Source: Allacma fusca (lineage: Eukaryota; Arthropoda; Collembola; Symphypleona; Sminthuridae). Taken from it: 64,000 bases of DNA. The notes beneath the pieces were generated by a model, which saw only the letters and a program-made list of their open reading frames with translations, had not been told where the DNA came from and made no database searches. The stretch lies in the NCBI GenBank assembly GCA_947179485.1, contig OX359245.1, positions 25,283,067 to 25,347,066 of the forward strand, in the 5' to 3' direction. The stretch's first letter is position 1. Every line of letters begins with the position of its first letter. This document shows positions 19,441 to 64,000 of this stretch, piece by piece. Position numbers and translations under genes: made by a program.

Positions 19441-19641
19441 GATGCTTCTAGTTCTAATGACCAACTGATGGCAGTTGATTTAAAATGTTGAGAATAACAA
19501 TGGAGTAGTAATCCATGCGGTTGTAAAGAGGCACTTGAAATATCAAAGAATTTATTTTCCATCAAAATATCAATCATAACTTGACATTATTGACAGCCTC
19601 AAATACAGTAATTTATCATAATAAACGTCAATAATAACTGA

Positions 19642-23500: not shown

Positions 23501-25072
23501 TCGTCAAGCTAAAATTTAATTGCGGACAGAAATAAATTTAAAAGTAAGATGAAGCATGGGCAAGCATCCTCATCCTTTTATGAAAAAGTTTGTTGGCTGT
23601 GCTCGGCCAATCATAAAATTATGGCACTCGATTCCAATTACAACAAAACTATTATTTGTCTGAGGGACACAAAGTCTGTTTCCGCAGTTATTTAGTTTGA
23701 ACGAAAGTACTACAGAACAAGATAGCGGCAGCGACGTTTTACAATTTAACTGTGCATACAGTAGAAGCATTGTTAATATAAAATAGAAAACATAATTATA
23801 GTAAACTCTCGCTAACCGGCAAAAATTGTCCCTTATAAAAATTATCTCTTTTAAGCATTGTGTTATACATTATATAAATGGGAATAGGGACTGCAAATCC
23901 CAATTCCTTATATCGAAAAATCCCTTATAAGAGTATCCCTTATAGCGATAGAGCCATTGTATTCAATAATTCTGCAAGGATAGATATACAACACTCTTCA
24001 TTCTGAAATATTGCTGACTATAAGCTTGTAAATTGGGCAATCCTTATAGCTAACTTACGCTTCTTTAGTTTGTGGTACTAACAATTGTATGCATTTTATA
24101 ATAATATTTGTATGCCGAAAATAAAAAAGTCTCAGTGTGCCCTTAAACAAGTCTGACTTTGCTACACGCGCATTTGACATCTCATAGCGTCGTTGAAGAG
24201 TTTGTTGCCTCTTCAGCGACAATATGAACTTCTGGATTGGCATAGCTCAATTTCGACAGTTACAGACAGTAAACTGTCTTTATTTAAAACCTTTGGCTTT
24301 TCATAAATTTGAGCTCCTGTATTAGTTTCCTACTGCTTAATTCAACTCTAAACTCAACATCTCACTTTTGTTGTATCACATCGTCAAATCTTGCCTTCGC
24401 TAACTGTATAATACCCTGTGCCTACTTCCGTCTTACCCATGTACTTAAGTGCATTCACATGCACAATTAATACCAATAATAATACATCCGGTAGCATGAT
24501 TTTTAATTTCCTGCTTGATGCATTATTTTCTGTGAATTATAGGCGAATAAATTAATTTTCGATGAAAATGTATAGCTGTGTAATTATTATTTGACGTAGA
24601 TGAATGAAGTAAATTGTGACTTAATTCTATTTTATAATTTCTCCTCCTTTCCTAGCACTTTATGTACTTGACTATTTGGTTTCCAGCAATGTTGCTGTTA
24701 GGTTTCATATGCTTGTCCGGATGGTTCTTGTCAACTCGTAATTGTACTTACTTGTAGGTACTGTGGAGAAACAATTTTGCAAATGTTCAGTTTAGTTTAC
24801 AAAGCGTTCTGCAAGCTGCAGTGCAATATTGTGCTTGCAATGTCCCTCGAACTGAGCAAACACGATCAATCATACTTGTTTGGGAAACGGGAATACAATG
24901 TCCTCATTTTACTCCGAGTTTGCTTTGTAATTTTGAAGCAATTATAGGGTCACATTATATAATATGCATATGTTTGTCAATTTAGAAAAGTACGACTAAT
25001 GGGATTGGTAGTAATATCAAATAAAATGTCAATGTTACTACAGTATTACATGTTACAAGGAATTTTAAGTCA
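20554..25072. other. Gene-poor stretch
   Basis: About 4.5 kb of AT-rich DNA with no supportable gene. The short ORFs on both strands are isolated. Only a possible MITE near 23.8 kb stands out. Confidence 0.5.
23799..23961. mobile_element. Possible pogo/Tigger-like MITE
   Basis: The left end reads TAGTAAACTCTCGCTAACCG; the reverse complement of the right end reads TACAATGGCTCTATCGCTAT. Both resemble the CAGT--AACCTCG-TAA form of pogo-group termini and are flanked by TA, the target of the Tc1/mariner/pogo superfamily. The interior contains several copies of CCCTTATA. At 163 bp it is non-coding. The ends are diverged, so this is tentative. Confidence 0.4.
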
Positions 25073-26825
25073 ATGAAAAATAGTCTTTGTGATCTCGAGA
25101 ATTTTGATTGGAAAGGTGTCGAATTTACTGGAAAAATGTCTCTTTTCAGGAGGGAGAAACATTTTTCAGGGAAAAACTACGCCAATACTTTGCTCATTGG
25201 GATATTCCTTACTTGCAATTTTCTCGGTATGTTTCCATCCTCGGGGCTCTTAGAAGGTAATTTTGAAAATCTTGAGTTTCGTTGGCAAAACCCCATCACT
25301 ATCTACTCAGTCATAATTCTCGCAATTAATAGTTTCATTGGAATTGACTTCCTTCTTCATGGAGTTGACTCATATGTACAAACCTGCGTTGGTGTGGGGA
25401 TGGCAAATATGATTACAGGATACATTCGAACCTACAATTTTGTGGTCTCCGATATTTTAATCCGGGTCTGTGCCTTGTTCTATTGCAAGAAGGCTATTCT
25501 GATTCTACAAATAATTCAGGAACTGAAGCAGAATGTTGCAGATATTTCCATTATTCCTAACAAGTATCTTCAGGAAGTCAAAACATCTTTAGACCGAGTA
25601 ATTGAAGTCGAGAAGGACATTGAGGTTGAGGGGGAACGAAGAAAAGTGAAAGATTTTTATGAAGACGATATTAATGGGAATCACAATCCTTGGAAAATAA
25701 ATATAATGCTTGGAACAGTGCTATTATTCCAAGTTTATAATACTTACGAAAGGTTACGACCTACGATTTATGGGAAGCTGAAATTAGAGACTGTTTTTAA
25801 ATTCTTACATGGTGGACCATGTTTACTATTGATTTCATGGACACTTCATGCGTTCCTTTCCGCCTTTGCTCATTTTTTCCCTTTTTTGGCATGCATCACA
25901 ATCGGAGGGGAGATGACTTCTCTCTACTGCAAATACAAGTACGCCCTAATTGTTCATTTGAGGGAAACCCAATTATCAAAAGAATACGGAAATGTGTTCC
26001 AACAAAGATTCACAAGGGAGTTTAAATTATTGATGAAGCTATTCAATTACTTCTCCGAAATAGGAGCAATCTACGCTGGTATTTGTGTTGTGGTTGGTAC
26101 GATTGCCATGGCGCAATACTTCTACTCTTTCATTGTAACCTGGGATATCTCATCGCTTTCTAATTCCCTCTCCTGTTTTTATTGGATTTTCCTTACATCT
26201 ATTTTGGGGAATAGCATGCAGGAAAACGTAAGCTACATATGCAATTATATGTAATTATCAACACACAGATACGTATGTTCTGTAACAGCGCTGAAACTAT
26301 CATTTATGGAATTGCTCTCACCTCCTTGTTTTCTTTAGATATTAAAAGGACGGGAAGAAGTTCGAAATATTCTTGCTTCTGCAACAAACCAAGCAATCAA
26401 TGATGACGTATGTAATTACATATTTTCATTTATTTCAAAAAATTAAATATAAGATTGAAACAAAATTATGAGATTTGAAGAAACCAACAGTAGTTATTAA
26501 TCACGACGACATTTTTGTTTTTTAGCTACTTGAAGCTGCAAAATGGATGTGCACATGGAAATGGAAGCTAGCGCCCTGCAACTTGTTTGTAGTAAACAAC
26601 CACATGATTATTGCGGTAGGTTCTGCTGTCATTACATATTTACTTGGAGGAATATCGGAATGCATAATTTTTTTTGAAATTTTATGTCAGGCTTGTGGAA
26701 CCGTTTTGACACAAATCATCTTTCTCTTTCAAATAAAAATGTCGGAAACTACCATTTGTGGGGACAACCTGACTGAAGTATGTAAATGTACTCCTACAAA
26801 TGGGTATAATGCCTCGTCCTACTAG
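25073..26825 (+). CDS. Gustatory-type seven-helix chemoreceptor, four exons
   Basis: Exons 25073-26227, 26339-26407, 26526-26615 and 26691-26825 join in phase 0 throughout, with donors GTAAGC, GTATGT and GTAGGT and acceptors TTCTTTAG, GTTTTTTAG and ATGTCAG. They give about 482 residues. The long first exon carries about six hydrophobic helices. The last two exons give LFVVNNHMIIA joined to ACGTVLTQIIFLFQ, which fits the C-terminal seventh-helix signature of arthropod gustatory receptors (G-T-V-L-T-Y-x-x-x-L-x-Q-F in the family), here with Q in place of Y. Without removing the 75-bp third intron the ORF also reads through, but loses that motif. Expected in the dendritic membrane of a sensory neuron as a ligand-gated channel subunit; ligand unknown. 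Start is the first ATG. Confidence 0.82.
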
Positions 26826-44973: not shown

Positions 44974-46383
44974 TTAATAATGTATCCGATTGCAATTTAA
45001 CAGCTCTTAGAACTATTATAACCTTATTTAAGCAATTTTCATCCCCATACTGCTAAAAATTAATGTTTCTAAATAGCGTTTCATCCCTGCATATCCATAG
45101 TGTGGTTTGAAGTGATATATGGCACGGCCATGAACGTTTTAAAAGCTACATACGTGCATTTGGCTCAAGGGGAATCCCCTACCTTGCCCAAGCCGTTTCA
45201 AAAATTGACGGAAGCACGGATGTCAATCAGTTTCATTCGGCTTGATTAAACCCAATAAAAAAAATTTGAAGCGTATAAAAGGCATTACGTCATAAAAGGA
45301 TCAGCGCTCATTGTACTTACTTTATTTTGGCTTACGGACATCACGTATCAGACTTGATGGCCTTTTGGCAGATTTGCTTTCATCGTAACTGTCAATTTTG
45401 AGTACATGTTATGCCCGGACTGATCCACATCAACTCCCCCTTCCCAATCAAAAGTTAAAATTGTTAGAAAATTTCCATATTTTTAGCTTGCTCCAATTTC
45501 TACAAATTTAATTTTTCTTCTCATTCACAACCATTGATTTTCCTACAACTTAAATTATTTAGCGTGTGTTGTAATATAAAATAAAGGATTTGAAAAAAAA
45601 TTGATGCAATTAGCGTACATGCTATTAGATGAAAATCCCTTATTCCTATAAGATTAACAAAACAATTTGCAGATATGTTTCCACTTCCTAAAATTCAATC
45701 AGCCTGAGACGGAGTAATTCTACTAAAAATTCACTCACGTGGATCTTACTAAAAACAATGACAATGTATTTTGTATCTATGTACAAACCCAGGAAATAAC
45801 AAAACAGCTCCAGATACTCTTTAATTGATTGACTGAACAGGAGCATTACTAATCTAGAGATTTACGCGTACGTAAGAGATGAGCACTGACATGTGCTGCA
45901 CTAATTCCCTCCAATCTATGATCTATATAGTGAAATATCTCTTTATTATCAATTCATTCAAAGATCAACCTCACTCACAGTAAAAACTACTCTCACTTAA
46001 AAGCAGTTCACTCACCGGACGACTTTTTTCTCTATATGATAACTTACCTTGGCATGCTTTCAGGTGTATTGACACTGTACGCATACACATATGAGAAGTA
46101 ACAGTAATAATTAGCATTTTTCATCAAAAAGTCAATCCTGCCAATAAAATTTGGCCACGAATTAGTCCTCGACAATATTACATATAATCAAGATCTCTGG
46201 GCTTATTGTGCATGAAGATATGTTGATTACGTTTTGAGCCATCCATATGATCTCTCACAATCAGTAGTTTCGCAATTAACAAATTATTTGTTTGCGGTTA
46301 AATCCAATGCGTTGATGTAATTGCCTTACCATGATTGTGTATTACAGGTAATATAGGAATTAAGTGTAGGAATGATACATATT
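44974..46383. other. Intergenic stretch, no gene seen
   Basis: About 1.4 kb, AT-rich, with no supportable gene or repeat boundary. Confidence 0.5.
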
Positions 46384-46486
46384 TGCAGTATTGCTCAAAG
46401 TTCCTAGAATCTAGGAAATTCAACTCGCGCCAGTATTGCACGTGGTTAAAGATACCACACTTGAACGTGGTGTCTAACCATGTCAC
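46384..46486. repeat. 103-bp block, left copy of an inverted pair
   Basis: Its reverse complement is identical at all 103 positions to 63665-63767. It contains a palindrome TTCCTAGAATCTAGGAA and an imperfect hairpin GGTTAAAGATACCAC / GTGGTGTCTAACC. Weaker similarity continues beyond one end (CAAAGATG and AATTTTGC-TACCC), then stops. It could be a terminal or subterminal repeat of a large element or a dispersed MITE. Confidence 0.85.
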
Positions 46487-46704
46487 TGGCCAAAGATGCG
46501 CACGCAATTTTGCCTACCCTACGTACACTAGGCAAACAAAACAATAGGATTTTAAATATCGGATCAGTTTTAGAGGAAAAGCGTTGGAAATTCGTTGCAA
46601 GTATTTTCATTGCCGCGGCTTTTTTTACGTCGCAATCGTAGATATTGATAATAGTTATATGCGATGCTAATTTTTATTGTTTGAATTTTAAATTCACTGC
46701 TGAT

Positions 46705-47513
46705 TAGACATGTTAGTACCGTTCTTGTTTAAAATACCGTAATTACCGTTACCGTAAAGTGGAAAAACTCCGGTAATATTTTTAAGGTACGGTATCGTAA
46801 ATTAATCCGATTATGGTAAAAACACGAATATAAGTCGATTTTTATGGTATGTGTGTAAAGACATGAAGTAAAAAATCCAACATCAGTTATTCAACAATCA
46901 GTTTAGCGTCTTTGATGTCGATTAATGTGAGAGTATTAAATGTGCAGAAATTCCTTATAAAATAAGCTAGTTTGAAAAAAAATTAAATTTCCTTTTTTAC
47001 ATTCGTATGAAAAATATGAAAATCATAAAATATAGAAAACGATACTGATTTCTTCGATCTATCTTCTAGTAATTTTTCCTAAACTAAATCTTTACCAAAT
47101 TCGGTCGTACTTATATTAATTTAGGAAGTGACTTCCCATCTCTTTCTCATAACAGGTGAAGTGCCATCATGCCGTCAGACCGACTCAAAACATGACTCCA
47201 AACACTTGAATTATTAGACGCACGACTTGGTTTAGATTCTAAATAATCGGTTCGAATAAGTTTTTTTCCATATTGACACTACACACAATCTTTATTGTCG
47301 AACGAATTCCTTTCATTTTTGAGTTTAACTCTTTTTAATGAAAATTCGAGTATGTAACACCACAATTTTATGAGCCTTCCGCTGGATTGACGATATCGTA
47401 TGGAGTTACGATATCGCTTCAAAAAACCGATAATTATCGTACCTAAACCGTACCTAAATTTTTTACGGTAATTACGGTATTACCGTACTACGATACCGTA
47501 GTTGACATGTCTA
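46705..47513. mobile_element. hAT-type non-autonomous element F
   Basis: Exact 8-bp target duplication CTGCTGAT (46697-46704 and 47514-47521). Termini TAGACATGTTAGTAC and, reverse-complemented, TAGACATGTCAACTAC. Arms at about 46705-46810 and 47395-47513 carry degenerate ACCGTAATTACCGTACC repeats in inverted orientation. 809 bp, non-coding. Confidence 0.87.
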
Positions 47514-47631
47514 CTGCTGATCCACTTTGAGGTCCTAAAAATTAATCACGCGGGTTGAGGTGGAATAGAGTTCAAAATACTGGTTCCAATGAATTTTACG
47601 GTAAATTAATGTCAAATGCGCTTAGATGTCA

Positions 47632-48160
47632 AAGGTCATACTAGGCATTACAATTTGTGAAACATTTGTATATGGTCAAGCTTATAAGATAAAATATTCT
47701 AGATACTATTTTTCCAAACTGCAGATGACCTAAAATGAACTTCCTTCATCACATATTAACATATATTTATATATACTCTGCATCAAAATACACGCGTATG
47801 CATATTACTGACGGGTGATCAAATATCTGTGCAGTGGAAAGATATGCAGTGGTGAATTTACAAGGTGTGTACTATATTTTTGTCACTGTACAATCGATTA
47901 TAAGTTAAATCAGCTGTTTAGACGAGATGAAGTGTGTTTGAATGTCGTAGCTCATATTGGGCATAACAACTTATGAAATACCTACTAGTGGACAACATGG
48001 CAATGCTTGCATAATTAAACTTTTTTAAAAACTATTTTTCGGAACTATAGATTATGTAAAATGAACTTCACATATGCTGGATATTTGCATGCATATACGC
48101 CCAAATGTACATGTATGCACATCACTAATGGGCATTCAGGGATATTTTGTTTAAATTTGT
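47632..48160. repeat. Diverged tandem duplication of about 315 bp
   Basis: The stretch at about 47632-47840 (GGCATTACAATTTGTGAAA, then AAAATGAACTTC, then a TGCATA-rich end with ATCACTAATGGG-like sequence) is matched in order by about 47948-48160 (GGGCATAACAACTTATGAAA, AAAATGAACTTC). The copies are diverged, so the duplication is old. The remaining DNA between element F and 48488 shows no gene. Confidence 0.5.
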
Positions 48161-48487
48161 AGTCGTGGAGTAATTTTTTGTTCGGTTAATCAGAGAACTA
48201 GACGTTCAACTTTGTAAATAATCCCGTGTTGTGCCCTTTGGTAATTCGGATAAATATAATAGCATTAAATGTTTAAGCTGAAAACCATATAACTAACATC
48301 TAAACACTAAACATCCATATAATTAAGTGTTGCATGCTTGTTTGATTTTCACTGAAAGCCTAAAAAGTCAACTTTCGTGAACTGTAATAATGTGTACATC
48401 ATGTTAAACGAGAATAGCAGTCTGTCTGAACAATTTGAGTACATATAGTATGAGGTAGTATAAAAGTATTTGAGGATGTTTAACAAT

Positions 48488-49570
48488 GAAAATATTTTAA
48501 GAAAACAATTGTTTATTCCTACACAATATAAAGTGTCTGTTATGTCAATTGGAATCATTACAACATTCAATCATCCCTTGACGAATCACAACATTATTCC
48601 ATTCTATTTCCCATAAACTTTGTGGGTATTCATTATTTCAGCTGGTTTAATGGTTTTCTAATTAAATCTAAATTTCAATAATTCTATATCCCAAGTAATA
48701 TGAAAGAAGTTTATCGATTACAATTATTAATTTCTAAACTTGTCAGTAGATCCCCCATTGTAGCACATTTCATTAGCTTTCATTCTAACAGTAATGATAA
48801 TTTTGATTAGTTGCGACATGTTTTATTCCTAAAATTGAAACACATTTGTATGTTAATACATATTAGTTAAATTTTTTCGAAAATATTTTAAGAAAACAAT
48901 TGTTAATTCTTATACAATATAAAGTGCCTGTTAGGTCAATTGGAATCATTATACAATCGATCCTGCCTTGACCAATCATAACATTAATCTATAGTGTGTT
49001 CCATAAACTTTGTTGGCATTCATTATTTCAACTGGTTTAATGGCTTTCTAACTCTAATTTTCAAATCTATATCCCAAGTAATACGAAAGAGCAATGTATT
49101 TATTACCAACATTAATTTCTAAACTTGTCAGTAGATCCCACATTTCAGCTCATTCCATTAGAATGCATTCTAAAAGTAATGATACTTTTGATTAGTTGTG
49201 ACAAGTGCTATCCTAAAATTGAAACATTTGTATGTAAATATTTTAATTAAATTTGTTCGAAAATGTTTTTAAGAAACAAGTTAATTCTTATACTATATAA
49301 AGTGCCTGTTATGTCAATTCGAATCATTATAAAATTCAATCATCCCTTGACCAATCACAACATTATTCTATAGTATTTTCCATAAACGCTGTTCATTATT
49401 TCAGCTGGTTTAATGTATTTTATATCCGAATTTAAACTTTTTAGCCTAAGTAATAAGACGCCAATTTATTACCACAATTAATTTCACAATTAACTTGTCA
49501 GTAGATCTCACATATCAGCACATTCCATTGCCTTTAATTCTTAAAGTAATGATAATTCTGATAACTAACA
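48488..49570. repeat. Triplicated block of about 385 bp next to the transposase stop
   Basis: Three head-to-tail copies start at 48488, 48879 and 49259. Each runs from GAAAATATTTTAAGAAA through AAAGTG-CTGTTATGTCAAT, a CATAAAC-TTG phrase and CTTGTCAGTAGATC-CAC to an AAAGTAATGATAATT end. Similarity is high but not perfect, with small indels. The third copy ends about 5 bp from the stop codon of the large transposase gene, so the array forms its 3' flank and perhaps its 3' UTR. Confidence 0.8.
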
Positions 49571-49574
49571 CAGC

Positions 49575-52500
49575 TTATTCGCGTTTTCCTCTAAATGTTT
49601 CAGCGCGGCGATTTGGGTAGGAAAGTTTTCCTTTCTTCTTTTTTTCAGCATCTGCGCTTTTGGAAGTTTCGTAGTGCTGCAACTTTCTCTTACCAGATGT
49701 TCGGTTGACATGCCACATAGATCCAAAATGTAAATCCATAGCATCTAAGAGTAAATTGTTGGCCTCCTCTGTTGCAGGCGGTCCGTTTATGCGTATGAAC
49801 ATCTCCATGTCTTGATGAGCAGTTGACAGAGCTTCACGACCAGTAATAATGCTCTTCAACGTGGATCCGAATGATTCGGTTGCACTTTCACAGTGCGTTC
49901 GAGTACAGCTAGCAGCAACTAATTGTGCGACGTGAGGAAACAGATTTCGGATACACATAGCATCCCCCGAAATTAGAGCTCCATAGAAATTTGTTTCTTC
50001 CGAGCGATCAAGCATGACCGGGAATCCAAGAGGTCCCATTGAAGTATGAATATGGTTTACAAAATTCTTGTATTCAGCTCTCATAGTGTCCATCTGAATC
50101 GACGGATGAAGGCACCCTACCTTTTGACTTCTGCGTACAACCTCTTCAAAGCTTTCCCGAGGGGGTAAATCGTTTCCTCGTTTAGCTATTTCTGAAAAAG
50201 AAAAGCATTCTTGAATGAAACCATCCATCCCTGATTCTCGTTTCTGTCGTCTTGAGGTTAGGCTAGAAACGAATCCATCAATGTGTGCCGATGCCTCCTT
50301 GTAAACTTGCTGAGTCCATGCGGAAAGGTCGTTGGGTTGGAAATCAGTTTGACCATCTTGAGCCCTTGTTTTAGCAGATCTGTTGGTTGTTACTTTGCGT
50401 TGAAGGTATTTGCAGTCCTTTCCTAACTCATTGAGACATTTTTGGAACTCTGGCCAGTGTGGCAGGTTGTGCACAGTACTACGGTCCGTGCTGTCGTTGA
50501 ACAAGCTGTTTTTCATTTCATTCAATGAGCTACACAGCTCTGTCATTTCTTCATGTATATGCCAAGGTAACGTATTTACGCGCTGAACCGCCTTAGAGGT
50601 TTCTGCAATCCTTCCATAAATATCAACGAGACACGTAAGTCTTAGTGGGAATGAAATATGCCTTACATCGTTGTGAAGGCTATCCAACGTATTAGAAAAC
50701 CTGTCGTAAACCAGGGGGTAGTTGCTTCGGAATGACTCAAGAACATTTACTGCATATGCAGTAAACCGTGTATCGCACCATCGCTTAAATCGCTTGAGTC
50801 TGAACTTGTCGGTTCCCTCGTCACTATGTGCAAGTCGCAATTCTTCGAACGACTTTTTTACGGCAGCCCAATTTTTTCCCCAAGTTAAGTTATGACCTCC
50901 CTTAGTAACTGTTGAAACAACACTGCGAATCCAAGGAACTCCTATATGGAACCCCTCACCATGTTGCTCCCGTGCGTCTTTGCCTGCTAATTCTGAATCG
51001 AATAAACAAATATAAATACATTAGAATTGAATAACATGGTAAAAATAATTGTCAAGAATTACCTATAACATGTGCCGGGTCATGATTAGCAGAATAGTAA
51101 TTGCGATTTTCCTCCGGTATATGCAACAAATCGAAAATGTGTCTTGGAACGTTCAGGTGGAAGTATTGGCCATCAAAAGCAAATCCAACGCACCTGTAAA
51201 ATAATGTAATTTTTAAAATAATTCCAATATCCGAACTATGCTACAACAACCGAAAACATTAGCCGTATTATAGAAAACGTACCGTTCACGAATATCGTCT
51301 AGGGTAAAATATTCTTGCAGGGCCTTTATAATCGACAGGGCTAAATATTTTCCGTCACTGTTCTCCAATGGCTCGGCTTTCAGAAAAATTGCTCGCAACT
51401 CTTCCTCTTCGTGAAAGACAATTCCAATAATGTGCATTGTATCCTTGTTGGGTGTGCATTTATCTGCAATTATTTGTTAGAATAACAACCATGAAACACT
51501 TATACTTAGGTATGCTTTATAGTACTTTAAAAATGTTTACAAACCAGCAATGACAGCGAATGGCCTTTTCTTCTTGATGTTCACTAATGGTGTGTCTAAA
51601 ATCTCTTTCACGCGAGCCTTAAAAGCTGTATAGAAACATTCTCCAATTTTCGGGACAAAATTTCGAGAATGATTTATATCGCCAACGTCAAGATTTTTGC
51701 ACGAATCAACAGCTACACTTTTCGGGTAGGATGAATATGGCTTTCCGTCACTGTAACTTTGATAAGCATTTCTTGCCAGAACTAAACCAGCTTGAACGGT
51801 GGTATCGTCAAGTGTCACCGGAAATTGCTGTGGAGTTTCTTGATTTGATGCGTTTTTGTGTTTTGCTGTCTCCAAATGTTCGCGAAGTTTCTGTTTTAGG
51901 TTTTGAAAAGACTTCGGGATGGTCTGATTTTCAAAGTTAGTTCCCGAGCTTGCATCATAAGTGAATCTTCCCTTTTTTGTTCCAGTGCTTTTGCAGGCAA
52001 TGCATTGCAAGCCGTCTACAGCTCTTTCAAATGTCCCGTCGTAGGAATCCACGAGTTTTTCAAGCGTATCAATTCTTCCATTATTACTTGAATTCTTCGA
52101 CGAGGCACTGCCTTGTTGGTTTACTTCCTCTGCAAAATCAACGTTTCTATTTTCGATGGTCTGCTTACGTTTTGAATTTGAATTTGATTTATCCATTCTT
52201 CCATTGGTACTTGAATTCTTCGATGAGGCACTGCTTTGTTGTTTTGCTTCCTCTGCAAAATCAACGTTTCTATTTTCGATGCTGGGCTTACGTTTGGAGT
52301 TTGAATTTGATTTATGAACTTGTGCGCGTGTAGCCTCAAGATCGACGGTAGGCTGGTGTCGAGCCAATTGTTTTTGTATTTCCTTTCGTACGTTCCCACG
52401 GTATTCATCCAAACTATTCGCAGGATTTGTTCCAGTCAAAATCGTTTCGTACTGCAACAAACATGCTATGCCGCAGTTGTACCCTGAAATGGTTTGTTAT

Positions 52501-54663
52501 ACTATAAGTATTTATTTGGTACGAGCAGTGATTATTACGAATTGCACGAGATAATCTATAACTTACCATCAGTTTGTACAAATAATGTTGGAAGAAATTG
52601 AATGTCTAAATCTGCCTGAAATTCTCGGGCAAGTGCTTTTGCCAATACCTCGACGCCGGCGCGCATGTCGTCATAGTAGCACGAAATTCCATCAACACTC
52701 CAAACAGTCAATTTTTTCGCTCTGAAAAAAATAATACTTTTAAAACAACTGCTTTGCGCATTCAGTAGTGAATATTTGTTATACATTTGTTGTTTTCTAA
52801 CTCTCTGTCAAATAAATAACTGACGAAATGGTGTCCATTCGGCAACACACCAAAGTGTCGACTACATTCAGGATTTATGGACGAGTACAACAATCCATCG
52901 TGATAGTACCAGAGGTCCTCTTGTTTGGCTACAAGTGCTTCTTTTACATAAGATATATTCAGTGCTGTTGCTTCGTCATTGTATCGCTGCTGAAGCACTT
53001 CCATGTAATATACAATATCACTATGCCATAATTCCTGGCCATCTTGAAAACTTTCTATGTTGACATTTTCTGGAATCGGGATTTCATGAACGTTTGAACT
53101 TCCATTGTCATTTGTGGAATTTAGCTTCTGTGGACGTGACTCGTTTGCACCGGTTGTAAGAAGTTCTTCGGTAGTTGCAGATGCAACTTTCTTTCTTAAG
53201 GTTTTGTCAATGTCAGATGTTTCGTCTGGACCGGATTGCGATTGCTTTTGTTGGCTGCTCGACTTTTTTTGAAAGTCGGGATTTGAGACCGACGTCACGT
53301 CACGTGATGAATGTGTAGCTGTATAATCCGCGTTGCTATCAACAGACAGCTCAGGTTCACTTGACGTGGTACAATCGGGGTACGTGCGCTGTCTTTTTTC
53401 TGCTTTGCCACCTGTTGGTACTTCATCCTCGGTAATTACTCTCTCAGAACCGAATTCTTTAATATACCGGTGCAGTAATGCAGTCGTTTTTGTTTGGAAA
53501 TTATCCCAAACGCTTGCAAAAACGTTTCCAACTCTGTGTTTCATTTTGATGACATGTGTTTCCTTTGGCTTCATCCTTTCTTCCATTTTTGCGACCTTTC
53601 GTTGAGTTTTCTTTGCATTCTCTTCCCCTTTCTTTGCAGTTGCTTCCAATTTCTTTGCATTTTGTTCCACTTTCTTTGCCATCTCTACAACAGCTTTATC
53701 AGCAATTCTTCTCGCCTTTCTTTCCATTTTATTCGCTTGGTCCTCCAATTTTTTAGAATCCTTAACAAGTTGTTTGCGTAACTTTTCTTCCTGCCTTTCT
53801 TGTTCCTTTTGATGTAACCGTTCAGCTTGTTTAGCCTCTGCAATTATTTTCTCTTCATAGTAGTTCGCTAACCATCTCTTGTTAGCCTCTTTCGAGCGTT
53901 CCGATTCCTCTGAGCGATTAGACATGTTTCTAATTCTCAACTCGTAAGCATCCCTTGCAGAGGGTGACAAACAAGTCGTTGATAGTGTTAGCAGTTCTGT
54001 CGTAAGAAGATTCTTTATAGTTTCAGCATTGTAATAGTAGGGCGACGACACTTCTTTTGTATCCGCTGTTGACCGATATCTCGACACCGAGTAATCTTGA
54101 TTTCCTCTACTGCTGTAATTATTATCTCCCCAGGACGAAGTGCCCGCATTGTACCATGATTTACATTCGTCTTTGTGACTTTGAAGCTGTTTTCGATCAT
54201 CATAATCCCGATTCATTGTTTGCTCTTCATTATAAAGCGCCTCCTTTTGTTCAACCTGTTTTTTTTGTAACTTGGCTTCTCTTTCTGCTGCGTTTTGTTG
54301 CTCACAGCTTGTTTTCTGATATCGTTGCCTTGTCTCTTCCATCCTTAGCCGCTCTTTTTCATACCGTCCTTCTTGTTCTCTTCGTTTTTCACGATACAGT
54401 TGTTCATCCATTTTTGCTTGCTCGGCAGCTTTCCTGTCCCTTCTGGCGTTTCTTGTCTCTCTGCATATTACCTCTCGTTTTAATTGTTCACTGATGTTTC
54501 TATCGCATTCTCTTCTATCAAGGTCTATTTTCCTTCGTTCCCTGTCTTCTTGCATACGTTGTTCCCCTCTTCTCCAGGTTTCATTATTTGCCTGCTTTGC
54601 ATCATTCCTGCCTAACCCACCACCCACGTGACGGAACGATGCAATTGTTGAAGATCCTCCCAT
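49575..54663 (-). CDS. Giant transposase: coiled coil, Ulp1-type protease, zinc finger, DDE core
   Basis: Six exons join in frame with GT-AG borders: 54663-52785, 52719-52567, 52483-51545, 51463-51283, 51193-51063 and 50992-49575. They give 4701 nt, 1566 residues and no stop. Residues 20-400 are Glu/Lys/Arg-rich coiled coil. Residues 605-690 hold a C48/Ulp1-like core: His612 (HHFVSYLFD), Asp636 (WSVDG), Gln675 and Cys681 (QTDGYNCGIACLL). A 41-residue unit occurs twice (about 735-816). A CIAC...H-5-H finger is at 839-887. The DDE-like part has Asp992 (FAVIADKCT), Asp1059 (FDGQYFHL), HDPAHV, WCDTRF and a candidate Glu1463 or 1467 (CESATESFGS); a Lys-rich tail follows. The RNase H layout is hAT-like, while protease plus transposase recalls the KDZ group; the family is unresolved. 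An acceptor 12 nt before the ATG implies a 5' UTR exon. The gene looks whole and recently active. Confidence 0.87.
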
Positions 54664-54671
54664 TGTTATGA

Positions 54672-54960
54672 GTTATCTGAAACAATTCCGTCAAAAGGTT
54701 TAATAAAAAAACATGCCAGGCTAAACACAAGTAGTCACAAACTATCTACGAATAAATATATGTACAAAATAAAGACTGATTGACAAGTGTTGCAATATAT
54801 TCCCTTTCTAGTTCATCATGTGATTCAAATTATGTTGTGTTTTATAAGTGCAACTATCAGATGTAGTTCCCAATATCTTCGCATAATGTTTTAACTGTTT
54901 TACTAGTAGTAAACAGTAGTCGTAATAGTGGGGTTGAACTATCGACTTGTTGAGTTAGAT
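54672..54960. other. Spacer between the transposase gene and the old minisatellite
   Basis: Contains the splice acceptor (GTTTCAG on the minus strand, ending near 54676) for the transposase 5' UTR. Nothing else recognised. Confidence 0.45.
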
Positions 54961-56335
54961 TGCCAATATAGTGTGTACAAAGTGTTGAGTTAGCTGCAGC
55001 CGTTATAAAGTGTACAAAGTGTTGAGTTAGATGCAGCCTTTATAAAGTGTACAAAGTGTTGAGTTAGATCGAGCCGTTATAGTTTGTTCACAGTATTGAG
55101 TTATAGGGAGCCGTTATATTGTGCATAGTGTTGTGTTACATCGAGCCGTTATAGTGTGTATGAAGTGTTGAGTTTGAGGGAGCCGTTATAGTGCGTCAAA
55201 AGTGTTGAGTTAGGGGGAGCTGTTATAGTGTGCATAGTGTTGTGGTAGAGGGAGCCGTTAGTGTATAAATAGTTAAGTTAGAGGGAGCCGTTATAGTTTG
55301 TACAACGAGTTGACTCAGGTAGTTCCGTTATAGTTTGTATAACGTGTTGAATCAGAGGTGCCGTAATAGTGTGTATAAAGTTTTGAGCTAGAGGGATCTG
55401 TAATAGTGTGTATAAGTGTTGACTCCGCGAGTCCCGTAATAGGGTGCACAAAGTGGTCAGTTAGAGGGAGGCCTTATAGTTTGTATAACGTTTTAAGTTA
55501 GAGGGAAACGTTATAGTTTGTATAAATTGTTGATTCGCGGGTGTCAAAACGCTGTTTATGAAGTGTTGAGTTAGGGGGAGCCGTTGAAGTGTGTAGAAAG
55601 TATTGATTTAGATGGAGCCGTAATAGTGTGCATAAGTTGTTGAGTCAGGGGTGCCGTAATAGTTCGTATGAAGTTTTGAGTTACAGAGATCTGTTATATT
55701 GTGTATAAAGTATTGCTCAGATATACGCTTAATGGTATGTAAAAGGTGTTGAGTCGGGGGTGCCGTAATAATGTGTATGAAGTCTGTTAAAGGGAGTCGT
55801 TATACCGTGTGTAAACATCAGAGTCGGAGGGAGTCGTAATAGTGTGTGCAAACTGTACAGTCGGCGGAATTCCTAATATTGAGCATGATGTGCTGACTCA
55901 GAGGGAGTCGTAATAGTGTTTGGAAACTGTATAGTCGGACAGTTTCGTAAGAATGTGTATGACGTGCTGACTCAGAGGGAGTCGTAATAGTGTTTGGAAA
56001 CTGTATAGTCGGAAAGTCTCGTAATAATGTGTATGACGTGCTGACTCAGAGGGAGTCGTAATAGTGTTTGAAAACTGTATAGTCGGACAGTCTCGTAATA
56101 ATGTGTATGACGTGCTGACTCAGAGGGAGTCGTAATAGTTTAAATAAAGTGTTGACTCAAAGGGAGTCGTTATAGTGTGTGTAAACTGCATTCGGAGGGA
56201 GTCGTAAAATTGTGTGCAATGTGTTGATCAGAGGGAGTAGCAATAGTGTGTTTAGAGTGCTGACTTAGAGGGAGCCGTAATATTGTATAAACAGTGGACA
56301 CATAATGAGTCGTAATAGTGCGAATAGTGTTGAGG
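54960..56335. repeat. Old, diverged array of the 37-bp minisatellite
   Basis: About 35 degenerate units with the pattern GTGTTGA-T-AGAGGGAGCCG followed by TTATAGTGTGTATAAA, drifting toward GACTCAGAGGGAGTCGTAA at its right end. Unit length is close to 37 bp with many indels. The unit is clearly kin to the homogeneous array at 57.2-59.1 kb, so both descend from one repeat. Confidence 0.85.
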
Positions 56336-56474
56336 AAATGGACTATTAATAGGTAAATAATTATTGTGATGACAAAATAATCGCGCTAGTATATTAAACA
56401 ATTGCTGTAATTTTATAATTTTTTAGAATCTCAGAAACTGATACAATTATCTCATCAAGCATTTTCATGAAACT

Positions 56475-57097
56475 TTAGATATCGTCGTCTGAGTCTTCCA
56501 TTGATGGCCAACCCATTATCCCCAAGTCCCTATTATCTGGAACGAAACTATCTATTTGACCAGGTTCAAACAAATTTGGATTCGATTTAAAAAGGATTCG
56601 AAAATACTCTTCTTCTTCCTTGTTTTCCTTTTTGGAAGCCCTGGTTGCCTTTAATTTTAAAAATAAACAACCTAAGAATCGATTCAATGCCATAATGTTT
56701 TAAATCTATCGTGTTGATGAATTACTTTGCAGCATTCGGCACGAATTTTTTCCCTCTCGGCCTCAATTCTGTCACATTCAGATTTTATTCTCAGATACTT
56801 CCAAAATTCCTTTCGTTTTTTGCAATCCATACGTTCCTGAAATAGGTAGCAATGATTGTTAGTTGGACAGGTATGTGCGTTGTTTCTACTTACGTAAAAT
56901 TGAAATAAGAAAATAATAGTAATAACCCTTTTTAGTTCATTCAACTTTTCAAGTCCTCCTAGTAACTGAGCTTCCCTAACCTTTCTCCGCATGTTATTCT
57001 TCCTAGTCCTGTAATTGGTTACCGAAGTTCCCCGCAGCTTGAGTGAATCCCCTGCTGCCATAGTTTTGCCCACATCGATGACTACACTCGTATCCAT
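56475..57097 (-). CDS. Small coiled-coil protein with acidic tail, between the two arrays
   Basis: A three-exon model joins in frame: 57097-56894, 56836-56726 and 56648-56475 (donors GTAAGT and GTAATT, acceptors TATTTCAG and AAATTAAAG), about 162 residues. The N-terminal part (MDTSVVIDVGKTMAAGDS) may be preceded by an upstream exon, since TTGACTATTGTAG just before it looks like an acceptor. The middle is a basic coiled coil (RMDCKKRKEFWKYLRIKS and after), and the tail is acidic (MEDSDDDI). If the first intron instead starts earlier at GTTATT, the coil runs on without the hydrophobic VITIIFLFQFY insert. No family recognised. Its place between arrays on the transposase strand suggests an accessory gene of the same element. 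Confidence 0.55.
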
Positions 57098-57194
57098 TCC
57101 GTCTACAATAGTCAACACCAAAATTATTATTTCACGCAGCTTCCACTTAAATTACGCATTACGACTTCCCTGAGCACGAACGTACATACAACAT

Positions 57195-59230
57195 AAAAAC
57201 AAATGTGTTGACTCATAAGCAGTCGTAATAGTGTGTGTAAAGTGTTGACTCGGAGGGAGTCGTAATAGTGTGTATAAAGTGTTAACTCGAAGGGAGTCGT
57301 AATAAAGTGTATAAAGTGTTGACTCGGAGGGAGTCGTAATAGTGTGTATAAAGTGTTGACTCGGAGGGAGTCGTAATAGTGTGTATAAAGTGTTGACTCG
57401 GAGGGAGTCGTAATAGTGTGTGTAAAGTGTTGACTCGAAGGGTCGTAATAGTGTGTGTAAAGTGTTGACTCGGAGGGAGTCGTAATAGTGTGTATAAAGT
57501 GTTGACTCGTAGGGAGTCGTAATAGTGTGTATAAAGTGTTGACTCGGAGGGAGTCGTAATAGTGTGTGTAAAGTGTTGACTCGAAGGGTCGTAATAGTGT
57601 GTGTAAAGTGTTGACTCGGAGGGAGTCGTAATAGTGTGTATAAAGTGTTGACTCGTAGGGAGTCGTAATAAAGTGTATAAAGTGTTGACTCGGAGGGAGT
57701 CGTAATAGTGTGTGTAAAGTGTTGACTCGGAGGGAGTCGTAATAGTGTGTGTAAAGTGTTGACTCGGAGGGAGTCGTAATAGTGTGTATAAAGTGTTGAC
57801 TCGAAGGGAGTCGTAATAGTGTGTATAAAGTGTTGACTCGTAGGGAGTCGTAATAGTGTGTATAAAGTGTTGACTCGGAGGGAGTCGTAATAGTGTGTAT
57901 AAAGTGTTGACTCGGAGGGAGTCGTAATAGTGTGTATAAAGTGTTGACTCGGAGGGAGTCGTAATAAAGTGTACAAAGTGTTGACTCGGAGGGAGTCGTA
58001 ATAGTGTGTATAAAGTGTTGACTCGGAGGGAGTCGTAATAGTGTGTATAAAGTGTTGACTCGGAGGGAGTCGTAATAGTGTGTGTAAAGTGTTGACTCGA
58101 AGGGAGTCGTAATAGTGTGTGTAAAGTGTTGACTCGGAGGGAGTCGTAATAGTGTGTATAAAGTGTTGACTCGTAGGGAGTCGTAATAAAGTGTATAAAG
58201 TGTTGACTCGGAGGGAGTCGTAATAGTGTGTGTAAAGTGTTGACTCGGAGGGAGTCGTAATAGTGTGTGTAAAGTGTTGACTCGGAGGGAGTCGTAATAG
58301 TGTGTATAAATTGTTGACTCGGAGGGAGTCGTAATAGTGTGTATAAAGTGTTGACTCGTAGGGAGTCGTAATAAAGTGTATAAAGTGTTGACTCGGAGGG
58401 AGTCGTAATAGTGTGTGTAAAGTGTTGACTCGGAGGGAGTCGTAATAGTGTGTGTAAAGTGTTGACTCGGAGGGAGTCGTAATAGTGTGTATAAAGTGTT
58501 GACTCGAAGGGAGTCGTAATAGTGTGTATAAAGTGTTGACTCGTAGGGAGTCGTAATAGTGTGTGTAAAGTGTTGACTCGGAGGGAGTCGTAATAGTGTG
58601 TATAAAGTGTTGACTCGTAGGGAGTCGTAATAAAGTGTATAAAGTGTTGACTCGGAGGGAGTCGTAATAGTGTGTGTAAAGTGTTGACTCGGAGGGAGTC
58701 GTAATAGTTTGTGTAAAGTGTTGACTCGGAGGGAGTCGTAATAGTGTGTATAAAGTGTTGACTCGAAGGGAGTCGTAATAAAGTGTATAAAGTGTTGACT
58801 CGTAGGGAGTCGTAATAGTGTGTATAAAGTGTTGACTCGGAGGGAGTCGTAATAGTGTGCATAAAGTGTTGACTCGGAGGGAGTCGTAATAGTGTGTGTA
58901 AAGTGTTGACTCGGAGGGAGTCGTAATAGTTTGTGTAAAGTGTTGACTCGGAGGGAGTCGTAATAGTGTGTATAAAGTGTTGACTCGAAGGGAGTCGTAA
59001 TAGTGTGTATAAAGTGTTGACTCGTAGGGAGTCGTAATAGTGTGTATAAAGTGTTGACTCGGAGGGAGTCGTAATAGTGTGTGTAAACTGTAGAGTCGGA
59101 GAGTCATAATAGTGTTCATAAAGTGGTCACCAAGAGGGAGTTGGAATATTGTATATAAAGTGCTGTCAGTAGTCGGAATATTGTGTAAAAAGTGTAGAGT
59201 CAAGAAGATATGTATAAGTGTGTACCGAGG
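57195..59230. repeat. Homogenised 37-bp minisatellite array, about 50 units
   Basis: Each unit carries GTGTTGACTC, a 5-bp variable core (GGAGG, GAAGG or GTAGG), GAGTCGTAATA and an AGTGTGTATAAA or AAGTGTATAAA linker. GACTC and GAGTC form a small hairpin. Variants recur in the same order (GTAGG with AAAGTG linker, GGAGG, GGAGG, GGAGG, GAAGG), so there is higher-order structure of about five or six units. Units decay from about 59080 rightwards. No unit has a stop on the minus strand in any frame, and 37 is not divisible by three, so very long spurious ORFs arise. Confidence 0.95.
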
Positions 59231-61986
59231 ATGTCAGTTGCTTGGAATGTGAATTTAGCAAAGACAGCCACGAGAATTGCCTTTACTGGCAGTTCTCAAT
59301 GGTGTATCAAGTGTACATAACAGTAAGTATAAATCACACATGGCCACAGTAGATAATGTAATTGAAGAAAAATTTAAAAAAAAGACACGATAAAAAGTTT
59401 GTGATTTAAAATGTTTTTTGCGTTTAGATAGCAAAACCAAAAATATGGACTTCCTTGATTTCCTAGTATTTAATTTTTTGGGTGTATGCGCAAATTTGTA
59501 TTATTTAATAATTTTTGCTAGGCTCGCAACTTAATAGATCCTCTCTTTTTTCTTACAAGAAAAGTAACAATAAATTTGAAAGGCCGCTTTTTAATACTTA
59601 CGTATTTCCGTAGTCCAGAAAAAGATGCTGAATGCAGTTTCTTCGCCCCGAAATTTCGCTCACGTATTCAGAAAAGCTAGATGATTTGACAAGTGAGGTA
59701 AAGTTGAAGTAATCATTACAGCGTTCAGGCATCACTGTCTCTGTAAAGTCTTCGAAATGAAATCCCATGATAATTAAATACGACACCATCTATTCATCAT
59801 TGTCCAGAGGATCCATTGTCGACAGGACGGTAATATGACAGTCAAACTAAATTAAGAGAAGGCTAGAAGTGTATATTTCCATGTGACGAATGAAATCGCC
59901 CGCACTGTGTCTGCATAATGTTTCAGTAGCGTGTGTACACTAGTGTGCATAATTGCGTAAAATTTAGCGTCCCCAGGAATCCAACTGTTCCTGAAAACAC
60001 TGTAGTTCCTAAAATATTACTGCATTTCATAGTGTAATATAAGCACTACACATCCGTTCAAAACGTTTCTACGCATTTTTAATGACTGTTTGTTCTACAA
60101 CAATTTAGTGTATATAGAACGGGTGACAAATTAATCAAGTGCAGTTGTACACCTCGTTATGATTTTATGCATGCTATTATATGGAAAGGATATTAACTAT
60201 ATGTACTCGAATAGGTTATCTAGTTAATGTTAGTTATGTAGTCTAGTTAAACAAATACACATGAAGACAAACGAAATATACATTAACGTACACTTATTTA
60301 TTAATCCATTTGTAGTTTGCTGTAAATAGAAAATATTTGAGAGCATTTTAGACAAATCTGTCAAAATATGACAGAATGTGTTACCTCGTAAATCCACCAC
60401 TGTATATACATCTTTGTTTACCCGCCAGTAATATGCATTCGCGTAAGGACGCATCATATATATATACAGAAGTATATATGATTTGAGGATGAAGAAAATT
60501 CGTTGTCTGAATATTAGAAAAATAGTAGCTAGAATAATGCGTAATATAATCATAGCCATATCAGGTGCAATAATGTTAGTCAACCAGGAGTCCGCTATTT
60601 TGGACTTAATGAAAACATAGGGAGTGGAAATGGAGAAGAGTTGAGTGAGAGTGGGACTGGTATGCACAAAACAGGTGGGGACTGAAACTGAGTGGGACTG
60701 ACGAGTTGAACTGATACAAGTGCAGGGACAAAGCGAGTGTGATGCGAGTCCAATAATAAGCAATCTGTTAGTGACCTATATTAAAGGAGAAGAATGAAAA
60801 TGAGCGTCTTTTTGTATCCTTAATGACTGGTTGTGAGTTTGACCCAAGTCTTTCGTTGGGACCTAGACTGTTCCTTCATTATGATGCACGACAAAAGACA
60901 TTGCATGGTCTGCGTCAAAAACAGGTACAAAGGTTTCGGAAGCATTTCCACTCATGGCTTGCTGTTTACCTGGTTTGAGACTAATTTGGAAATGATTTCA
61001 AATGGAAGAGAGCTCAACGGATGGTCATCTTAACTTTATGTGCGAACGTTCTTTTATTTGATAATTTACAAATATTTTGTTATTTGCTTATTTATGCATG
61101 TAATAATTTGTCAATCAAAATACAAAGGCTTCTCGGGCTGACCCCTTGGCTGGATCTTCCTTCCATTGGCGGGTTTAGTTCTTGCAATAGTCCCTGCTAT
61201 TGCAATACATATCCTACTCCCCGAGACCTCCACGTGACTGCTGATGAAGCAACGGGAGACAGTTTCAGCAAAAAAGAGAAGCCGGGCGTACACACAATAT
61301 ACGTACAGAAATTAGTGATAGTAAGGTTAGTATGAAAGAGACTAAAGAGCCCTATGAATAACTTAACTATAAACAAGTGATCATAAGGAAAGCCGTTTGG
61401 TGGTCGACTGGTCTGGATGTGTCCTTGATGGTATTCCAACAGTTCAGGGAGCTAATGGAACTCTTATATTTGGGGAACATTTTGAAGGAACCAGAGAAGT
61501 CTGGAAGGGCCAGAATTTTTTCCACAACCATTAAGCAGGGGTCGGATTTGTGTGGGAAGAAGGGATTTTAACCGCATCTGTGACGATCACATGCCGAAGA
61601 AAACTTGTCATTTCAGCGCCGTAGACTTTCGCTGATTTTAGTTTCAAAATTTTGAATGAGCTCGTCAATGACTGAAAATACGGGTAAAACCGTAAGGCTA
61701 TTAGCCTCCAATTGTTATAATTTTTCATTTACAACTTCCATCATATGTGATAAAAAGTTAAGATAACTCACTGGTAGCTCACTTTTTTATAACTCCAGGC
61801 CAAAAAATAACCTGATTATTTTCGGTTCACTATCTTTGTTCTGAACTTGAAGAAATTGTTGATGTTTCACTCCATGATAAACCAGGGATAATTCAGCAGC
61901 TGCAGTTTTGTCATCACTTTAATTTTTAAATGCTTGAAACAGGCAAATTAGTATGACTCAGGCACTTAATATTACGAAATCAAGCA
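59231..61986. other. Stretch with isolated ORFs, no firm gene
   Basis: A minus-strand ORF at 59598-59789 ends at a strong donor (GTAAGT at about 59601), with the last residues LFLDYGNT, so it may be one exon of a gene read toward the minisatellite. A minus-strand ORF at 60230-60763 (177 codons, hydrophobic) has no family. A locally GC-rich segment at about 61130-61290 is open on both strands. None is strong enough to call as a gene. Confidence 0.4.
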
Positions 61987-63600
61987 GTCCCGGAATGACA
62001 GTCGTTGTCCCGTGTCCCGGAAGGGTGTATTCCGGGACATGTAAATGTCCCGGAAACGTCGAGCTCAAAAAGTTATGAAAATTTTTAAAGTTTTTAAGAT
62101 AAAAATAAAATATTTCGTTCTAGAGTAGCTCGATTCAAGCGAGAGTACCATGTGCATCTACATAAAATAAATCAAATCATAAAAATGTGATTACAAGCGT
62201 AACAAAATCGCTTAGCATCAGGTAATAATTAAAAAGGTCCAGGTTTTACAATTATATATGGGAAGAGGTTGGCAATTAAAAAAATTGGTTACGTCGAAAT
62301 GGCAAAGATAACCAGACCCCTGCTAGGATTTTAGTGTGTAAAGCGACTTTCTATGTGAAGTATGAAGAATTTGGGTTTGTTAAATCTCACACGTAAAGTT
62401 CCTAAAAACCTAGAGAAAGCAGGTGCTGAAACTAAAAAAGTTTAGATTTTTTTAAACCAAAAAATCTGGAGACGATTAAAAATTTGACATATTTGCTGTT
62501 ACAATGCGACCGTAAATTACGGTCTCCAAAATTATGTGTTTTAGAAATTCCAGGAAGAAAATCCATCAATTGTTGCTGCTAACTGCAAATATCACATTAT
62601 ACACAGCGCTATAGAAAATGCATGCAATAAATTATCAATGGATTTTAAAGGCTTAGTTTTAAAGGTTTGTAGCGAATCTAGCTCGTCTGTGCAGAGACTA
62701 GACTCTTTAAAAAAGTTGTGTGAATTTGTGGATGTGGCTTTTCTTGCTTCCAGCACTGCACAGATTCCTTTCTAATAGGTCAGCTTTGAAGTCACATTTT
62801 TTTGAAGGAATAAAGTGACTGCTCTGCTGTTAATCGCAAGGTTGATTGTCATACCAGCAATGAAGATGCTGCGAAACTAGAATGTTACTTATATATTCTG
62901 CACATTATTGTACAATAAATGAATTCGCCCATTTAAATGTTGGAGTGTAATGATTGTACTTCTACGGAAGTTTACGTCAATGAAATCTCTTCTGAAAAGT
63001 TCTGTAAACCGATACGATAAATTTTACGGAAGTAGCGCTAACGGAAGCGCTTTGAACAGGAAGTTTTGGATTTTTTGGAAATCACTGCAGACCTATTTGA
63101 GCAGACATTTTGATTTCAGTGATACTACATTTTTTTTGAAGATGGAACTACTAAATTTGAAATCAGAGTAATTTTTAGTATCCATGGCTTATTTACTAAA
63201 TATTGCCGTTGCGCTCAGTATTAAATTAAACGAGGACCAAATGTACAATGAATTTTGCTTACTTCGTCAAAATTGAGTTTTTTATTGTAATCGGTGATCG
63301 TGAGATCGGTCGGTGCAAAGTGGGCTGAATTTTTTAAGAAAGATCAATGTCCTGAACTATTCAAGCTTGTATCGTTCGTGCTATTAAATCCTGTTAGCAA
63401 CGATTTTGCAGAAAGTTATTTCAGCCTAATGAAGAAAGTTTGGACATCCAAGAGAAATTTAATGTCAACAAAACTTGTGAAGACATAGCTTCAAGTGAGG
63501 CTTAATGGGTCCTTCTCATGTTGTGAATTGGTTTCTTTTTTGAACAAACCGGAAAACAAGAAAATGTTATTAGATGCCAGAAAGGCTACCCTAAGTATGA
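61987..63600 (+). mobile_element. Decayed hAT transposon with motif-repeat arm (element G)
   Basis: The left end starts CAGTCCCGGAATGAC and continues as inverted and direct copies of TCCCGGAA / TTCCGGGAC to about 62060. From about 62545 the plus strand carries remnants of a hAT transposase: IVAANCKYHIIHSAIENAC, then VLKVCSESSSSVQRLDSLK, NRSALKSHFFEG, DFLEITADLFEQTF, and the C-terminal dimerisation region LVSFVLLNPVSNDFAESYFSLMKKVWTSKRN, given here only as landmarks of shorter blocks. Several stops and frame changes show it is dead. No right end or target duplication is visible before the window edge. Domain recognition is strong for the C-terminal block, weaker elsewhere. Confidence 0.7.
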
Positions 63601-63664
63601 CCTTTGAAATCTATGCGCATTTTATGTGTACGGGTATGCAAAATTATTTGTTCATCTTTGCCAT

Positions 63665-63767
63665 GTGACATGGTTAGACACCACGTTCAAGTGTGGTATC
63701 TTTAACCACGTGCAATACTGGCGCGAGTTGAATTTCCTAGATTCTAGGAACTTTGAGCAATACTGCA
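63665..63767. repeat. 103-bp block, right copy of an inverted pair
   Basis: Identical in reverse complement to 46384-46486 at every position. It follows the decayed hAT transposase by about 70 bp. The block reads open in frame (VTWLDTTFKCGIFNHVQYW and on), but the left copy is open on both strands too, so coding is doubtful. Confidence 0.85.
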
Positions 63768-64000
63768 TATTTGTTCCATCCACGCAAAGTCAGGAACCAT
63801 GCTCAGTTATGCAGAAGGACTTTGTTTGCAATGCTTTGACAGCCTCTAATATTCACAAATTGTTATTGTTGTGGAGGATAATGGGGAAGGTATTTGCTCT
63901 GAAGAAAGTACCTGAGTGCTACATATATATTAATTGTTGGGTAACGAAACATCAATCGTAGCAACAACTCTGTGGTTATATGGTTTTACAGTAATAATAA
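63768..64000. other. Right edge, nothing recognised
   Basis: The ORF crossing from the 103-bp block continues to 63961 without a recognisable domain. The far end is AT-rich. Confidence 0.4.

Follow-up and report, generated by a model that had tools for sequence, protein, structure and literature searches.

What does the long spliced reading frame on the minus strand at 49575-54663 of this DNA encode, and does it own the transposon ends that surround it? The window, by which we mean the whole 64-kb stretch of Allacma fusca contig OX359245.1 analyzed here (37.5% guanine plus cytosine, hereafter G+C), contains at this place one open spliced frame in which protease-like and transposase-like motifs follow each other in order, enclosed by matching ends and a target-site duplication. 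From these observations we infer the folds of the protein, its activity, the movement of the ends by the gene and a role in tag removal. The explanation that we favor, with a probability of roughly 0.55, is that of a protease-fused transposase gene in a 17.4-kb DNA transposon with hAT-type ends, in which the gene would own these ends, its core would cut and paste the unit and its upstream domain would remove ubiquitin-like tags; as judged from its sequence, the unit is probably autonomous.

The gene model was derived by enumerating 864 combinations of splice junctions on the minus strand, six of which remain open for more than 1,400 codons, corresponding to two exon 1/2 junctions combined with three acceptors of intron 5. 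The chain retained has 1,561 codons free of stops and consists of the following exons.

52802-54663, minus strand: exon 1, residues 1-621, with the coiled coil, a low-complexity stretch, the start of the protease-like region and H611/H612
52567-52721, minus strand: exon 2, residues 621-673, with D631 and Q670
51545-52483, minus strand: exon 3, residues 673-986, with C676, an in-frame 123-bp duplication, the CCHH finger candidate and the first portion of the core
51283-51463, minus strand: exon 4, residues 986-1046, the codon of D986 straddling the exon 3/4 junction
51063-51193, minus strand: exon 5, residues 1046-1090, with FDGQYF (D1053) and HDPAH
49575-50992, minus strand: exon 6, residues 1090-1561 and the stop, with DTRF, a middle stretch of about 290 residues, CESATES (E1458/E1462) and a basic C-terminus

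The six exons in a single stop-free frame that the first-pass annotation of this DNA had proposed are thus confirmed, with all five introns of GT...AG type, 70-89 bp long and poorer in G+C (0.21-0.30) than the exons; the joined frame has G+C values of 0.50, 0.39 and 0.38 at the three codon positions. Its other frames contain 67 and 116 stops in the sense direction and 66, 70 and 56 in the antisense direction, and an AATAAA signal lies on the minus strand at 49470-49465, about 105 bp beyond the stop of the transposase. The length of 1,566 residues given by the same annotation is reproduced exactly with the alternative exon 1/2 junction (52785 to 52719); we prefer the model of 1,561 residues, for the weak reason that its protease-like fragment scores 14.1 rather than 11.9 bits against the best Pfam model, and all residue numbers follow it unless stated otherwise.

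Exon 3 is a single uninterrupted open reading frame that starts shortly upstream of the catalytic Cys, includes the finger candidate and extends as far as the codon of the first Asp of the core; exons 1 and 2 connect to it via two short introns within the protease-like region. Because this exon joins Cys, finger candidate and core start in frame, one chain is, from the sequence, much likelier than two genes, as had been claimed earlier for the coiled coil, the catalytic set and the core motifs. The same exon contains at 52067-52315 the in-frame tandem duplication of 123 bp, with KRK stretches, the copies of which differ at 10 codons (three silently).

The gene lies within a unit of 17,380 bp, 46386-63765, which was recognized when an inverted-repeat search paired 46372-46519 with 63632-63779 (148 nt each) and the ends of which are as follows.

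46386-46486, plus strand: left terminal inverted repeat of 101 bp, starting CAGTATTGCTC
63665-63765, minus strand: right terminal inverted repeat of 101 bp, without a difference from the left copy
46378-46385, unstranded: left target-site duplication CATATTTG, 8 bp
63766-63773, unstranded: right target-site duplication CATATTTG, 8 bp

Searching for target duplications near the outer arms yielded seven rows that had one mismatch or none, the single perfect one being CATATTTG. At each end this perfect pair abuts the tip CAGTATTGCTCA, precisely where the identity of the arms stops, and it ranks first of three rows in a scan demanding matching tips; random 8-mer pairs of the window are identical at a frequency of about 5e-5. 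The first 30 bp of the terminal repeat occur just twice in the window, with three mismatches allowed. The ends around the gene (8-bp duplication, CAG tips and 101-bp inverted repeats) are hAT-compatible. Tips of hAT elements are short and of YARNG type, a consensus that the tip CAGTA of the unit matches at the first four positions only. Since ends and duplication are perfect, the sequence suggests a recent insertion of the unit.

The transposase core presents, in this order, D986, FDG with D1053, HDPAH (1083-1087), DTRF (1163-1166) and CESATES (1457-1463), the two aspartates lying 67 residues apart. We take this spacing and the succession of D, DG, AH, TR[WF] and a C-terminal E to be the layout of hAT transposases, and presume that the core motifs of KDZ transposases, some of which carry an Ulp1-like domain, differ from those of our protein. 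An expression D-DG-AH-TR, written post hoc, matched none of 20,000 shuffles. The Pfam models of hAT proteins (e.g., C-terminal dimerisation and DUF4371) gave no row at an expectation value (E) up to 10 for the whole protein, the core or the C-terminus, and PF18758 (KDZ transposase) gave none either, negatives that are limited, like those at the same threshold below, by the filters of HMMER, which discard most rows above about 0.1. Other transposase families produced no row for the core in profile searches, and no hAT chain was matched in the PDB. As the protein gave a row for no transposase family, hAT and KDZ included, we use hAT-like as a tentative, sequence-based statement about motifs, not about membership. 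The hAT-like layout of the first-pass annotation stands as regards the ordered motifs and the 8-bp/CAG ends, while no family model supports hAT kinship. Weak Pfam and PDB rows (HK97-gp10, netrin-G2, calpain-7, DUF3525, DUF3037, Rad10 and others) were dismissed as noise.

Two further regions precede the core, both with coordinates converted by hand.

52431-52872, minus strand: protease-like (clan-CE-like) region, about residues 598-690, in exons 1-3
51858-52004, minus strand: finger candidate, C833-x2-C836-x38-H875-x5-H881

The candidate catalytic set of the first region, H612-D631-Q670-C676 (H612, D636, Q675 and C681 in the 1,566-residue numbering), was correctly located by the first-pass annotation and has distances of 19-20 residues from H to D (H611 or H612), 39 from D to Q and 6 from Q to C, which we assume to be Ulp1-like. 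What does not hold is its description as a complete Ulp1 set. PF02902 (Peptidase_C48) never appears, with no row at E up to 10 for the whole protein or the protease-like fragments, the best row is that of YopJ, and the residue after His612 is Phe613 where Ulp1 has a Trp directly after the catalytic His; for these reasons we call this part, tentatively and by motif only, a clan-CE-like domain and do not name it Ulp1. With a 192-residue fragment the single Pfam row was PF03421, YopJ acetyltransferase (E 0.027, 14.5 bits with a cut-off of 24.4, residues 598-681), which was again the sole Pfam row with two shorter fragments (E 0.036 and 0.16). In its favor, this match covers the catalytic residues and YopJ is a member of the protease clan that also contains Ulp1; PF03421 is presumably a family of the clan to be expected for an H-D-Q-C domain.

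The pattern might have arisen by chance in a long N-terminal extension, the protein then being merely a divergent hAT-like transposase, and the lack of a C48 row would agree with this explanation. Reversed or shuffled controls of the YopJ search produced rows in 5 of 10 cases, the best having an E of 0.033 versus 0.027 for the real fragment, so that the YopJ value by itself proves nothing, and a loose H-D-Q-C expression matched 8,987 of 20,000 shuffles and is hence uninformative. However, the strict form of the expression (both were written post hoc) matched only 42 of 20,000 protein shuffles, and the weak YopJ row spans precisely the catalytic residues and is the sole row in both shorter versions; we thus deem a chance pattern improbable. 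As improbable, in our estimation, is that a hAT-lineage transposase might carry a YopJ-like clan-CE domain acetylating, rather than deconjugating, chromatin or repair proteins of the host where the element is excised or inserted; were this true, a transposase would write or erase a host signal within its own reaction.

The second region retains from the C2H2-type finger of the first-pass annotation a CCHH candidate, the spacing of which is not classical and the Pfam rows of which, zf-C2H2_2 (E 0.11) and zf-C17orf113 (E 4.9), are far under the cut-offs.

Ownership of the ends depends on how the arms of the unit are related to its body, for which four additional features are relevant.

46705-47513, unstranded: nested 809-bp element, a passenger, with tips TAGACATGTT/TAGACATGTC (9/10) and the perfect 8-bp duplication CTGCTGAT
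47579-48176, unstranded: left subterminal repeats, 47579-47859 directly resembling 47885-48176 in 199/317 columns
60369-60631, minus strand: right inner arm, inverted match to 47609-47885 in 185/293 columns
61900-63590, plus strand: decayed remnant of a second transposase, judged hAT-like by eye only, with stops in all three forward frames, the competing candidate for ownership of the ends

On the left, the arm sequence picks up again at 47614-47642, beyond an interruption of 1,085 bp that includes the 809 bp of the nested element; on the right, it continues nearly directly at 63594-63622, followed by the decayed transposase. The left segment 47614-47642, an inner piece of the outer arm, lies within the direct-repeat unit 47579-47859, which thereby ties this arm to the body of the element. 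The piece itself outscores all 291 real-DNA control windows, yet it is equalled by 10 of 2,000 shuffles, and the remainder of the repeat unit scores 119 versus at most 63 in 500 shuffles. The inner arms form an inverted pair, 47695-47866 with 60536-60383, that agrees in 120/180 columns and has a strict score of 96 versus at most 41 in 100 shuffles. They are far more diverged than the identical outer ends of 101 bp, and thus do not have the look of recent ends belonging to an intact element. The nested element also contains a 17-bp perfect inverted repeat (46733-46749/47465-47481).

The main rival explanation, serious even if we consider it unlikely on the whole, attributes the 101-bp ends to a decayed hAT-like element, within which the protease-transposase would be a nested transposon with diverged ends of its own near 47.6 and 60.6 kb. 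The relic lies on the plus strand, where its C-terminal portion immediately adjoins the inner side of the right repeat, and removal of 47643-60561 and of the 809-bp element from the unit would leave about 3.6 kb, an ordinary length for hAT elements; moreover, the inverted inner arms do exist, with an imperfect 8-bp pair beside them. Against this, the relic has decayed in every forward frame and the ends and duplication are nevertheless perfect, the degree of agreement between the inner arms is that of old sequences rather than of an intact element's ends, none of the 870 inner-arm tests that required matching tips gave a target duplication, and the repeat unit continues across position 47642, where the junction ought to be. 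Overall, we favor the intact gene and not the relic as the owner of the ends at about two to one. Against Pfam the relic produced a row for Rad10 (E 0.031) and none for hAT; 3,774 tests for clean ends of its own yielded two 5-bp matches, which were rejected. A permissive alignment of the flanks (495.5, with shuffles up to 540.5) was discarded and strict scoring kept, and an alignment with many gaps between 47914-48476 and the right flank (341/610 columns), being without control, was set aside.

The intactness of the 1,561-residue frame beside a decayed neighbor, together with its presence in a single copy within the window, could also indicate a domesticated or single-copy host gene, with the surrounding unit as a composite mobilized on a single occasion. 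Its setting among matched ends, subterminal repeats and minisatellites resembles, instead, a mobile element, and makes this explanation rather remote.

Besides the controls of the YopJ search, several observations weigh against our preferred reading of a protease-fused transposase that owns the ends. A duplication of 8 bp is not specific to hAT elements, since P and Zisupton produce 8 bp as well. The left arm is longer than the right by 268 bp beyond the nested 809-bp element, which no clean insertion explains, and the approximately 3 kb between 60631 and 63594 are not accounted for by a clean insertion either. The decayed transposase sits just inside the right end, and the inner arms are accompanied by one 8-bp pair, TAAGATAA/TAATATAA, with one mismatch and tips out of register. 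An expression for the C-terminal hAT motif matched nowhere in the protein, protease and core are without a match above cut-off in Pfam, NCBIfam and PHROGs, and the PDB returned noise only. Finally, the fold model of exon 6 (472 residues) is nearly all helix and uninterpretable, with a mean predicted local distance difference test (pLDDT) of 38.6 and a predicted template modeling (pTM) score of 0.27.

Under the preferred reading, an RNase-H-like core (D986, D1053 and E1458 or E1462) would excise the unit and reinsert it with an 8-bp stagger, while the clan-CE-like cysteine domain (H612-D631-Q670-C676) would act on ubiquitin-like tags at the transpososome or at the insertion site. The tagged target could be the transposase or nearby chromatin, and the tag removed would most likely be SUMO or a relative; its removal might blunt silencing or turnover by the host. 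Alternatively, the domain may cut the protein itself, separating the coiled coil from the core.

How does this arrangement compare with known systems? The unit shares with the hAT superfamily the 8-bp duplication, the CAG tip and subterminal repeats, whereas it differs in its length of 17.4 kb, its 101-bp inverted repeats and its protein of 1,561 residues with a protease-like domain. The target duplication of hAT elements is usually 8 bp, the same as for Zisupton (PMC12730594), and those of P and hAT elements are given as about 8 bp (PMC3706591). Zisupton proteins are multi-exonic, reach 1,400 residues and contain PF18758 (PMC9297572); our unit resembles the Zisupton/KDZ group in the 8-bp duplication (Zisupton) and the large multi-exon protein, but its protein is without a PF18758 row. 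In accord with the first-pass annotation, Ulp1 domains are found in other transposon groups. In Ginger1 an Ulp1 or OTU domain is fused C-terminally to a DDE transposase, and Ulp1 occurs in Mutator elements as well (PMC2836005). Ginger1 therefore combines a protease for ubiquitin-like tags and a DDE transposase in one protein as here, although its protease is C-terminal, its core resembles Gypsy integrases and the elements listed measure 2.6-7.1 kb (PMC2836005). ULP1 is also present in MULE and CACTA elements, including rice proteins with Tnp2 and ULP1 domains; these elements are alike in uniting ULP1 and a cut-and-paste transposase, but belong to other superfamilies with other cores, and in KI-MULEs the ULP domain and the transposase gene point in opposite directions (PMC2528002). 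CryptonF and CryptonS encode a C48 peptidase on a mobile element too, unlike ours with a tyrosine recombinase and not a DDE enzyme (PMC3212892).

The partnership of a protease with a hAT-like transposase looks new, such pairings being known in other transposon groups: no hAT-Ulp1 fusion was present among the literature matches listed, a search to which Repbase Reports, where an earlier description is possible, was external. If our reading is true, the capture by a hAT-like element would be another convergence after those reported for Ginger1, Mutator, CACTA and Crypton, and would strengthen the case that tag removal serves transposition itself, an active role in transposition having been suggested for the Ulp1/OTU domains of Ginger1 (PMC2836005). 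An intact gene within recent-looking ends would make this role testable in one element. Searches of viral contigs with exact 8-residue protein patterns, which detect close relatives only, matched one and five stretches, none of which was confirmed, and a degenerate motif and the 30-bp end had no match in these contigs. Three phage records, all at E 0.4, were rejected, as were 11 prokaryote loci from a scan of genome contigs with the motif DGQY-x-H-x-NV, for which the best tblastn value of the whole protein was 0.095, at the selection motif itself.

The unit contains additional features on both sides of the transposase gene.

48488-49562, unstranded: direct repeats with a period of about 390 bp (81% over 712 columns) that follow the transposase gene on its downstream side
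54967-56320, unstranded: degenerate minisatellite with a 37-bp unit
56475-57097, minus strand: second gene candidate, exons 57097-56927, 56836-56726 and 56648-56475, 151 charged residues, or 153 with alternative splicing
57205-59162, unstranded: 37-bp minisatellite, 53 copies of a unit with GACTC...GAGTC arms

The second gene candidate, without Pfam match above cut-off, is flanked by the two 37-bp arrays, both of which are located upstream of the transposase gene, and its belonging to the unit is uncertain; that the arrays might be binding sites and the gene of 151/153 residues an accessory gene is speculation. All three minus-strand frames of the 57205-59162 array are open for 614, 658 and 693 codons.

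Neighboring frames of the window include a subtilase (E 9.9e-41), pieces of carboxylesterase and a DUF1759 retroelement piece. Two tandem genes for secreted proteins lie at 18565-20565, the one at 18565-19479, which as the member of the pair searched gave no Pfam row above cut-off, having a metal-site-like motif THEVAHIVEG that we take to be basic-secretory-protein-like. At 25025-26251 there is a membrane-protein frame of 409 residues that gave no Pfam row at E 0.1 and resembles, by eye, arthropod gustatory receptors.

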